The notes under the pieces: generated by a model
Told to the model about the DNA's origin: nothing
What the model saw: only the letters and a program-made list of their open reading frames with translations
Database searches by the model: none
Made by a program: the position numbers and the translations under genes
In this document: positions 9,426 through 21,304 of the stretch, piece by piece
How the letters are laid out: each line of letters begins with the position of its first letter
Numbering within the stretch: the stretch's first letter is position 1
Origin: Gammaproteobacteria bacterium
GTDB taxonomy: Bacteria; Pseudomonadota; Gammaproteobacteria; Pseudomonadales; Azotimanducaceae
Assembly: GCA_018666555.1 (NCBI GenBank)
Contig: JABIZD010000155.1
Span: 1 to 38,160, forward strand
Length of the DNA: 38,160 bases
Reading direction: 5' to 3'

Positions 9426-9773
9426 ATTACGTTACTCACATTCAGGTTTTCTGGTAAAACATTCAGTCGCTGGCTATAGACCACGTTTGATCGTGATCGT
9501 TCCCAATAGTCTACTGATCAATGGTTCGTTTCTAGCGCTCTGGCGTTCAATGATAAGGGAAGCAGGACAGGCTCTGTTGCTAAGTTGAGGCCATGTGCTT
9601 GAGCTAGTTTGTCGGCTTTTATGCCGGTATAGCTGGATTGGTCGACATTGTCATCTATGTTTACCAGTTTTACCAGTCCAGAGTGCTAGATCGGGCATTT
9701 GTATTGTGGAAATCTGTTGTCCTAGGTAGACTTTGCTTATTGCTGCGCATTGCCTCGATAAGCAGATAAAAGT
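9426..9773. other. Intergenic region between divergent moxR and amt
   Basis: This stretch carries no open frame I can support and no RNA gene. It must hold the promoters of the moxR-bat operon (leftward) and amt (rightward). I found no sigma-54 site with GG-N10-GC spacing, although amt genes are often nitrogen-regulated. The only clear ordered sequence is the repeat array that begins at 9774. Confidence 0.6.
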
Positions 9774-9817
9774 GTCATAAAAGGGTCATAAAAAAGTCAT
9801 AAAAAGGTCATAAAAGG
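9774..9817 (+). repeat. Four 11-bp direct repeats, PHO-box-like, over the amt ribosome binding site
   Basis: Four consecutive units of exactly 11 bp: GTCATAAAAGG (9774), GTCATAAAAAA (9785), GTCATAAAAAG (9796) and GTCATAAAAGG (9807). Every unit contains GTCATAAAA. The last supplies the AAAAGG Shine-Dalgarno sequence of amt, 6-7 nt before its ATG. The known PhoB box consists of TGTCAT half-sites repeated every 11 bp with an A/T-rich spacer, so the array matches its period and most of its sequence. PhoB binding is an inference. The repeats could also be a non-regulatory tandem expansion. Confidence 0.85.
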
Positions 9818-9824
9818 GTTGTTT

Positions 9825-16369: not shown

Positions 16370-16807
16370 TTAGTTACCAACACGAACAGCCAGGACATCG
16401 CAAGGAGATCCATGCAGTACGCCGTTGGCAGTTGAACCCAGCAGCAGGGCCAGGCCATGTCGACCATGACTGCCTACCACGATCAGGTCGGCCTCGAGCT
16501 CTGTAGCCAGCGAGTGAATTTCAGTTTCAGGTCTACCAAAAACGAGATGTTGGTTTTCTTGTGGAATACTCAGGCTGGAGGCAAACTCCCGCAGTTGACT
16601 CTTGGCTGTCTCCTGGATTTGATCCTGGATTGTCGACAGGTCCATCGGCACATCACCGCCATAGGCTAAGCTCAGGGGCTCGATGACGTGGGTACAACTG
16701 AGCTTGCAATTAAACACGGTTCGTAAAGCGCAGGCTTTTTTGGCAACATCCCGAGCATCCTCGGTGAGATCGACCGCTATCAGAATATGGTTAAATGGGC
16801 TTTCCAT
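16370..16807 (-). CDS. Universal stress protein, UspA family
   Basis: With the ATG at 16807 the protein is 145 residues, the normal single-domain length. AAGG lies 8 nt upstream, so this start is preferred over the longer frame from 16873. The N-terminal ILIAVDLTEDA strand and the C-terminal ATP-binding loop GSHGRHG-x5-GST are both present, so it belongs to the nucleotide-binding UspFG-like subgroup. It is cytoplasmic and expected to rise under stress or stasis. A promoter reading TTGTTT - 17 bp - TACATT lies just upstream. Confidence 0.92.
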   Translation of the reverse strand: MESPFNHILIAVDLTEDARDVAKKACALRTVFNCKLSCTHVIEPLSLAYGGDVPMDLSTIQDQIQETAKSQLREFASSLSIPQENQHLVFGRPETEIHSLATELEADLIVVGSHGRHGLALLLGSTANGVLHGSPCDVLAVRVGN

Positions 16808-16844
16808 GCAGTGCACCTTCTGAAAAGTGAGGCTGTTAGGATCA

Positions 16845-16991: not shown

Positions 16992-17008
16992 CGAATCAGA
17001 TGAAGATT

Positions 17009-17104
17009 ATGATGCCCTATTTTTTGATTGGTCTGGTTGTAATGCTGCTGGTGGATTCGATAATCTTGATTTTACCTGATCAAAAAAGGTGGCTTATATG
17101 GTGA
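17009..17104 (+). CDS. Mini-ORF 1 of tandem array, 31-residue membrane peptide
   Basis: ATG ATG start at 17009/17012 and stop TGA at 17102-17104. It encodes one hydrophobic helix (about residues 5-22) followed by PDQKRW and a short tail. An in-frame ATG at 17000 is also possible, and the Shine-Dalgarno here (GAAG) is weak. Its stop overlaps the start of mini-ORF 2 by 7 bp (ATGGTGA). No database family is recognised. The closest relative I can see is the N-terminus of the 178-residue protein starting at 17187. Confidence 0.5.
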   Translation: MMPYFLIGLVVMLLVDSIILILPDQKRWLIW

Positions 17105-17190
17105 CAAATTTTTTGCTCGGCCTGGTTGTAATGTTGCTGGTGGATTCGATAATTTTGATTTTACCTGATCAAGAAAGGTGGCCTATATGA
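17098..17190 (+). CDS. Mini-ORF 2 of tandem array, 30-residue membrane peptide
   Basis: ATG at 17098 with AAAGGTGG 5 nt upstream, the best ribosome binding site of the array's region, and stop TGA at 17188-17190 overlapping the next ATG as ATGA. The peptide agrees with mini-ORF 1 at about 23 of 30 positions: a single TM helix containing LVVMLLVDSIILIL, then PDQERW. About half of the nucleotide differences from mini-ORF 1 are silent or conservative and no stop interrupts the frame. That hints at selection on the peptide but does not prove expression. Confidence 0.55.
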   Translation: MVTNFLLGLVVMLLVDSIILILPDQERWPI

Positions 17191-17723
17191 TGACTTATTT
17201 TTTGATCGGCCTGCTTGTAATGCTGGTGGTAGTTCCAATAATTTCGATTTTGCCCAATCAAAAACAGCGCGGTGTTATGAAGGTCCGAAATTCAGCCATG
17301 AGGCGAGGGATCGGTGTTGAACTCACCAGTATTCCTGATCATGCCGCAGAAGCCGTTAAAAGAGTCTCTGGGTCAGGCCGGGCAATCTCTCCTGTGCTCA
17401 AAGTGGCGGCTTACCGGCGTTATCGAAAACGACCTCAATCTCGACATGACCTGGCTGCGATTTCATGGTCGCTGCTTCGCGTCGCCAAGGGTGATGATAC
17501 CTTGCCGGCGCACTGGCACTGGCTGGAGCAACCGGGGCTTGAGGATCCTGAGCCCCTCAAGCTCTTTCTGGCTGGCAAGTTAAAGCAGTTGCCAGAATCG
17601 GTTGTCTTAGTCACTGAAAAAAACCGCGCTGTCAGTGTGCACTGGAATGAAAACGGCGAGGTACATCAGGCAGAGGCGATATTTTCGTTTCTGGATGACT
17701 GCATTAAATGGCCTGATATTTAA
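17187..17723 (+). CDS. Conserved hypothetical membrane-anchored protein
   Basis: 178 residues from ATG 17187 (second ATG at 17190), with AAAGGTGG 5 nt upstream. An in-frame GTG at 17178 is less well placed. One N-terminal TM helix (about 4-22) is followed by a basic juxtamembrane segment (KQRGVMKVRNSAMRRGIGVEL) and a soluble domain rich in Trp and Leu (ISWSLLRVAKGDDTLP, HWHWLEQPG, VSVHWNENG). The pattern 'TM, Pro, basic RxxAMRRG, VxLT, PD' recalls small hypothetical proteins of Pseudomonas-type bacteria, but I cannot name a family or function. It is the intact member of the 89-bp array and lies upstream of topA on the same strand, 240 bp away. Confidence 0.8.
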   Translation: MMTYFLIGLLVMLVVVPIISILPNQKQRGVMKVRNSAMRRGIGVELTSIPDHAAEAVKRVSGSGRAISPVLKVAAYRRYRKRPQSRHDLAAISWSLLRVAKGDDTLPAHWHWLEQPGLEDPEPLKLFLAGKLKQLPESVVLVTEKNRAVSVHWNENGEVHQAEAIFSFLDDCIKWPDI

Positions 17724-20651: not shown

Positions 20652-21244
20652 TGCCGGATAACGCCAACCCCAAGCCCTTCTATTGCGAAATCCTCGCTGC
20701 GCAGGTCGACTACAATTGGGCTGTAGTCACGGTTTTCCGGCAATAAGGTAATCTGATGGCTTTGTTCGCCTCGGCGAAATCGTTTCACTGTTACTTCATC
20801 TTCAATACGAGCGACGACGATGTCGCCATTATTAACCTGATTTGTTTTGTGCACAGCAAGCAGATCACCATCCATAATACCGCATTCAATCATGCTATCA
20901 CCTTTGACAATCAGCATGTAATCGGCGCTTGGGTGAAAGAAAGTTGCCGGGATTTCGCAGTGATCCTCAATGTGCTCCTGAGCCAGGATGGGGTTTCCTG
21001 CCGCAACCCGGCCGACAATTGGGATACCGAGCGTTTCCGGCAGTTTAATGCCTCTGGAGGTGCCTGGGATCATTTCAATGGCTCCTTTACGGGCCAATGC
21101 CTTGAGATGTTCCTCGGAAGCATTGGCACTTTTGAAACCCAGTTTGTTGGCAATATCAGCCCGAGTTGGCGGGTAACCGGTCTGATCTATGTGTTCCCTG
21201 ATGAAGTCGAGGACTTCTGATTGACGTGCCGTCAGTTTGATCAT
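20648..21244 (-). CDS. lexA: SOS repressor LexA
   Basis: 198-residue repressor of the DNA-damage response. The N-terminal winged helix carries [27 protein letters not shown]. The RecA-stimulated autocleavage site is A82-G83 (GRVAAGNP). The catalytic dyad is S117 (KGDSMIE) and K154 (VTVKRF). All features required for self-cleavage are present. Two SOS boxes and a promoter lie upstream at 21382-21433. No sulA follows, unlike in Pseudomonas where lexA-sulA is common; the gene instead ends against topA. Confidence 0.98.
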
Positions 21245-21255
21245 AAATTGCTCTC

Positions 21256-21304
21256 TTTATTCTTTTGTCTTTATTCTTTTGTCTTTATTCTTTTGTCTTT
21301 ATTC
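21256..21304. repeat. 14-bp tandem repeat in the lexA leader
   Basis: Three perfect copies of TTTATTCTTTTGTC (21256-21269, 21270-21283, 21284-21297) and a 7-bp partial copy (to 21304). On the lexA strand the unit reads GACAAAAGAATAAA. The array ends 12 bp before the lexA ATG, so the mRNA leader is A-rich and purine-rich right up to the ribosome binding site (AAAGAGAG). Confidence 0.95.

Follow-up and report, generated by a model that had tools for sequence, protein, structure and literature searches.

The stretch of DNA analyzed in this work (hereafter, the window) comprises 38,160 nucleotides, i.e., positions 1 to 38,160 of contig JABIZD010000155.1 in the assembly GCA_018666555.1, assigned to a gammaproteobacterium of the family Azotimanducaceae. 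On its plus strand, the gene coding for a full-length 178-residue protein with one N-terminal hydrophobic stretch (17187..17723) is preceded by two mini-ORFs in the same orientation: that of unit 1 (17009..17104), which encodes 31 residues and whose stop overlaps the next start, and that of unit 2 (17098..17190), which encodes 30 residues and whose stop overlaps the start of the full gene. Upstream, on the minus strand, lies a divergent universal stress protein gene (Usp; 16370..16807, with the start taken at the methionine of MESPF...), recognized by matching the translation of 16370-16822 to the Pfam family Usp (PF00582, E 8.5e-30). The region around its start can be aligned with those of the three nearest relatives (loci L002-L004, which lie on the same contigs as L005-L007 and belong to genomes G001, G010, and G012).

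The protein encoded by the full gene belongs to an orphan family. Neither the full gene nor the mini-ORFs matched any family above the cut-off in the Pfam and NCBIfam scans; the 27 family members compared with Pfam gave only weak and scattered matches (best E 0.013), and a PDB sequence search with the family profile returned three matches up to E 1 (the best at 0.14) and no convincing relative. One copy is present in the window's own genome, and, with this genome included in both counts, the family occurs in 36 of the 58 genomes of the relatives search and in 164 of the 206 genomes of the taxonomic family. The family alignment, which consists of 27 sequences (out of 30 full-gene loci, L001 being the window itself and L014, L018, and L032 being left out), displays a single N-terminal hydrophobic stretch, followed in most members by LP, and invariant positions M2, P17, P23, R34, G41, W153, and E155. 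In a looser check covering 70 loci, among them the window's gene, 69 have a proline between positions 12 and 19, the exception being L071. The hydropathy of the N-terminal stretch suggests that it is probably a transmembrane helix and that the protein is membrane-anchored. In the alignment, the middle of one member (L022, 1153-1800, minus strand) shows an inserted stretch of about 28 residues with DRI/TPD-like internal repeats.

The analysis of the window with Tandem Repeats Finder revealed an array with an 89-bp period at 17008-17264 (2.9 copies, 0% indels, score 353), whose units start at 17009, 17098, and 17187, the periods of units 1 and 2 thus covering 17009-17097 and 17098-17186, respectively. 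ORF1 and ORF2 overlap by the seven bases ATGGTGA (17098-17104), and ORF2 and the full gene by the four bases ATGA (17187-17190). The three-unit array described by the first-pass annotation is therefore real, with the exact period, the unit starts, and both overlaps as claimed; the AAAGGTGG sites inside units 1 and 2 are also present, and the third copy does run into the 178-residue protein. This copy indeed starts at 17187, but it is not a full 89-bp unit, its homology to units 1 and 2 being limited to the first 78 bases (17187-17264). Over 89 bases, units 1 and 2 are identical at 78 positions, in agreement with the figure of about 88% and the open frames previously reported for them, while the pairs 1/3 and 2/3 share 67 and 66 positions; over the homologous 78 bases, the corresponding values are 68 (87%), 63 (81%), and 62 (79%). 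Units 1 and 2 are thus closer to each other than either is to unit 3, and no indels separate the units. The description of many of the changes between the first two copies as silent or conservative holds only in part, since 5 of the 10 differences within the 26 codons are nonsynonymous. Units 1 and 2 end in 11 bases (AGGTGGCYTAT) copied from the gene's leader, and the duplicated segment thus corresponds to the leader with its ribosome site plus codons 1-26.

The leaders of the three units differ in their predicted strength. That of unit 1 (16994..17008, plus strand), which occupies the position of the gene start in the relatives, harbors a degenerated ribosome site (AATCAGATGAAGATT vs. AACCAGGTGRCCTAS in the three relatives, according to the alignment): its duplex with the anti-Shine-Dalgarno sequence has an energy of -1.7 kcal/mol, as against -7.3 to -8.2 kcal/mol in the three nearest relatives and -4.9 to -10.2 in four further ones, and 81% of the 707 plus-strand ATGs of the window are as good or better. 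An in-frame ATG at 17000 does not fare better (-1.8 kcal/mol). The copied leaders AGGTGGCTTAT (17087..17097, plus strand) and AGGTGGCCTAT (17176..17186, plus strand), representing the predicted ribosome sites of unit 2 and of the full gene, reach -7.4 and -7.5 kcal/mol, values equaled or exceeded by 13% and 12% of the same 707 ATGs. Hence, as far as prediction goes, the initiation site of the first upstream ORF is lost and that of the second is present; the old start, now in unit 1, appears to have decayed, and it is the youngest start that would serve the gene.

The comparison of the locus among relatives that the first-pass annotation had proposed could provide a count of units for the three nearest ones, which are 71-72% identical and possess one unit each at the same place. 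The window has 380 bp between the Usp start and the gene start, vs. 199, 200, and 188 bp in these relatives, and subtracting two periods (178 bp) from the 380 bp leaves 202 bp. When the DNA from the Usp start across the intergenic region to the gene start is aligned, the relatives match through the leader of unit 1, after which a gap opens for the extra units. The array was absent from 69 other upstream regions in an ungapped comparison of up to 500 bases; these comprised 29 of the 35 other matches from the relatives search and 40 additionally fetched ones, 68 of the 69 coming from those 163 genomes of the family, other than the window's own, that had a match, and one (L024) from another family of the order. 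The self-similarity in the window goes beyond chance: the best upstream self-match amounts to 73 of 90 bases in the window vs. at most 40 of 90 in the 69 regions, and the best upstream peptide score to 87 vs. 21. Searched at the DNA level, the 15 genomes of the genus yielded the array in the window's own genome and a single gene start in the three nearest relatives; conservation of the mini-ORFs across genomes was thus observed neither here, where the array is found in one genome and 11 of the 15 gave no DNA match and are hence uninformative about it, nor among the 69 regions. A scan that may omit records from this genome or from one very close to it yielded no second assembly of the species carrying the array. 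Within the genome, other copies of the junction were searched for allowing up to three mismatches, and this search returned the two sites of the array and one three-mismatch site on contig 72, a control pattern giving one match.

Taken together, the single-unit relatives, the extra length of two periods, and the character states that are common to the three units but not to the relatives bear out the idea that the 5' end of the gene was duplicated in tandem: units 1 and 2 match the leader and codons 1-26, a pattern found in none of the 69 other regions. The states in question concern codons 5, 11, 12, 13, 18, and 25, and, by parsimony, they place the duplication after the split from the single-unit relatives, a pattern that gene conversion between units could mimic. 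Moreover, compared with unit 3 and the relatives, units 1 and 2 have V14L, V16D, P17S, S20L, and N24D in common, which indicates that both descend from one diverged upstream copy. As a consequence of two of these changes, Asp16 and Ser17 occur in both upstream units where unit 3 has Val and Pro, and Pro17 is invariant in the 27 members. Once polarized, the changes amount to five nonsynonymous and one synonymous on the upstream stem, one and three in unit 3, one and three in unit 1, and four and one in unit 2; base 9, whose original state is ambiguous, changed in both upstream units, and four of the six changes assigned to the branch of unit 2 alter the residue. In Fisher's tests, the upstream copies did not differ significantly from unit 3 in this respect (p 0.19 for the stem and 0.28 for all upstream branches).

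The overlaps and the open frames can be accounted for without selection. The gene begins with ATGATGA both in the window and in the three nearest relatives, and, with a period one base below a multiple of three, an ORF copied from such a start reads the TGA within the next ATGA. When an 89-bp duplication was modelled on the single-unit start of G010 (L006), a 30-residue ORF ending four bases into the next ATG was obtained; the same modelling on the other two relatives, whose leaders are of the AGGTGACC type, gave a 27-residue ORF with its TGA stop five bases before the next start. The overlap thus follows automatically if the leader is AGGTGGCC, which units 1 and 2 reveal as the one that was copied, but does not follow with all leaders. 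In the window, the second codon of unit 2 changed from ATG to GTG, which shifted the ORF1 stop three bases downstream and created the ATGGTGA overlap. The overlaps of seven and four bases, as might be looked for in coupled ORFs, are thus present, yet they are expected from the period alone.

In neutral simulations with the inferred numbers of changes, both 26-codon frames remained open with their starts kept in 37, 40, and 43% of the runs (kappa 1, 2, and 4, respectively). Residue changes as few as those seen between units 1 and 2 occurred in 22-32% of the neutral runs if sites could repeat and the start codon was included, and in 13-21% with distinct sites and the start codon spared; under the latter sampling of distinct sites, the values were 5-11% for units 1/3 and 50-65% for units 2/3. 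The pair speaking most against neutrality is therefore 1/3, to which the constraint acting on unit 3 itself contributes. The dN/dS values between units, whose calculation had been suggested together with the comparison among relatives, are below 1 in all three pairs (Nei-Gojobori, codons 2-26: 0.27 for 1/2, 0.20 for 1/3, and 0.47 for 2/3; 0.32 for 1/2 if three more codons are counted). However, they do not establish purifying selection on the mini-ORFs, because the constraint on unit 3 enters two of the three pairs and the neutral simulation is compatible with the data; based on 4 to 17 substitutions, all these selection tests have low power in either direction.

Other tandem repeats are present in the window. 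A perfect 14-bp repeat at 21254-21304 (3.6 copies, CAAAAGAATAAAGA on the minus strand) lies just upstream of the start, at 21244, of a putative lexA-like gene; in two relatives, too, lexA is preceded at a distance of about 80-95 bp by tandem repeats, which differ in sequence (L002, 9158-9213; L004, 9145-9187). An 11-bp repeat at 9766-9819 (4.9 copies, ATAAAAGGGTC) directly precedes the ORF at 9819, a candidate ammonium transporter gene by resemblance. A survey of 329,472 bases, i.e., the window plus 291,312 bases from 20 of the 217 contigs (L079-L098; 12 whole contigs and the first 20 kb of eight), revealed that, on crude ORF calls, 12 of 35 tandem arrays centre in gene-start zones covering 12.4% of the bases, an enrichment that does not control for intergenic position and includes some arrays at contig ends. 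This hints that repeats in gene leaders are frequent in this genome. The 89-bp array has the longest period in the survey, the next being 32.

Based on these findings, we consider it fairly probable that the array originated from a tandem duplication, specific to this lineage, affecting the 5' end of an orphan gene and that it represents a tolerated by-product rather than a selected device. The ancestor would have possessed a single start, as the three single-unit nearest relatives suggest, and the comparison with them shows that the segment from the AGGTGG leader to codon 26 was duplicated with an 89-bp period. As the modelling on a relative shows, the upstream copy thereby became an out-of-frame ORF closing on the TGA of the next ATGA; it would then have diverged and, in turn, been duplicated itself, which would account for the states common to units 1 and 2. 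Sequence and duplex energies are consistent with unit 1 lying at the old start without its ribosome site and with unit 2 and the gene retaining theirs. Translation may occur on ORF2 and, to a weak degree, on ORF1, and a fraction of the ribosomes that terminate at the ATGA may reinitiate on the gene; since the latter has a good ribosome site of its own, the net effect is likely to be small. Our best reading is that any translational coupling would be incidental and at most mild, and a function beyond a mild effect on translation appears unlikely.

Some observations weigh against this scenario. Direct repeats of about 100 bp are unstable, those of 101 bp being deleted at high frequency in E. coli (PMC8378479), so that persistence up to a divergence of 13-21% could mean selective retention. 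Furthermore, the ribosome site of unit 2 and both frames are intact and no indel has accumulated between the units; all three dN/dS values lie below 1, the residue changes between units 1 and 3 are few for neutrality, and the branch of unit 1 counts one nonsynonymous and three synonymous changes in addition to the ambiguous site. The persistence of the copies suggests either selective retention or one lucky survivor among many duplications; mismatches, once accumulated, also stabilise repeats.

Alternatively, the array might be a selected regulatory leader: translation of the mini-ORFs would deliver ribosomes to the start of the full gene, or expose that start, and the number of units would set the output. 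The NTGA arrangement, reported to be much more frequent than any other spacing motif among co-directional genes lying close together (PMC12548453), would fit this idea, as would the AGGTGG sites before units 2 and 3, the minimum-energy fold of isolated unit 1, in which the start of its ORF is paired to the ribosome site that follows, and the very persistence of a repeat of an unstable kind. Nevertheless, we regard this possibility as unlikely, given that the overlaps follow from geometry alone, that unit 1 lacks a good ribosome site and the gene has its own, and that the array occurs in none of the 69 other regions. In addition, RNA structure was rejected as a coupling device, the folding not being beyond that of shuffled sequences (z of -0.92 for the whole array and of -1.16, -0.04, and 1.14 for the three units). 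The copy-number-tunable leader envisaged by the first-pass annotation is thus not supported, in view of a lost ribosome site in unit 1, an RNA folding that is not unusual, and overlaps expected without selection. We are still more doubtful about a serial, self-built leader, in which out-of-frame copies of a start would act as coupled upstream ORFs, their number, variable by slippage, would set expression, and the helix peptides would be by-products or decoys.

The same annotation had alternatively proposed a translationally coupled family of tiny membrane proteins, which is likewise not supported. It might be imagined that the mini-ORFs encode functional membrane micropeptides, e.g., helix decoys pairing with the full protein; both indeed keep a strongly hydrophobic stretch (best 19-residue Kyte-Doolittle means of 2.74 and 2.69 vs. 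2.86 in the gene) and the dN/dS point estimates are below 1. Yet the residue changes are compatible with the neutral simulation, most of those on the branch of unit 2 alter the residue, and both copies have lost the conserved proline and acquired an Asp in the middle of the helix; together with frames and overlaps that require no selection, this makes such a role improbable. Very improbable, and rejected here, is the idea that the copied segment matters as DNA by multiplying a promoter: a promoter-like TTGTAA-16-GATAAT occurs in each of the three units (with AATAAT in unit 3), but three matches compare with a mean of 1.7 in shuffled sequences, all three are copies of one motif at chance level, and the aligned bases of the relatives, inspected only by eye, do not match it. 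Lastly, an artefact could be suspected in a single draft assembly of 217 contigs for which no second assembly with the array was found; it would, however, tend to produce identical copies, whereas these differ by 13-21% over the homologous 78 bases and their flanks match the relatives, so that we deem an assembly error extremely improbable.

Returning to the duplication as a tolerated by-product, the implication is that a single slip of non-triplet length can be enough to produce a chain of overlapping mini-ORFs from a gene that starts with ATGATGA, and therefore such an architecture alone is not evidence of function. If it were true that the array tunes expression, it would represent a simple and evolvable translation dial, as well as a route for the birth of small membrane proteins. 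The literature retrieved on partial duplications, duplicated starts, and coupled upstream ORFs contained no serial array of self-derived upstream ORFs, which is no proof of absence.

Among the systems described so far, the coupling at NTGA motifs (PMC12548453) resembles the locus in the co-directional four-base overlap of the ORFs and in the ribosome site before the second of them, but in the array the upstream ORFs are copies of the start of the downstream gene itself and the coupling is putative. The upstream ORF of iraD in E. coli (PMC5574718) is likewise a short ORF preceding a gene; there, coupling was tested and CsrA is involved, whereas here it is putative, and the opening part of that abstract mentions neither an array nor the copying of a gene start. 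As for changes in the number of units, template switching during replication (PMC8378479) would offer a plausible route, the repeats being of similar size (101 bp), with the difference that those belong to a plasmid tetA assay and the units analyzed in this work are diverged natural copies.
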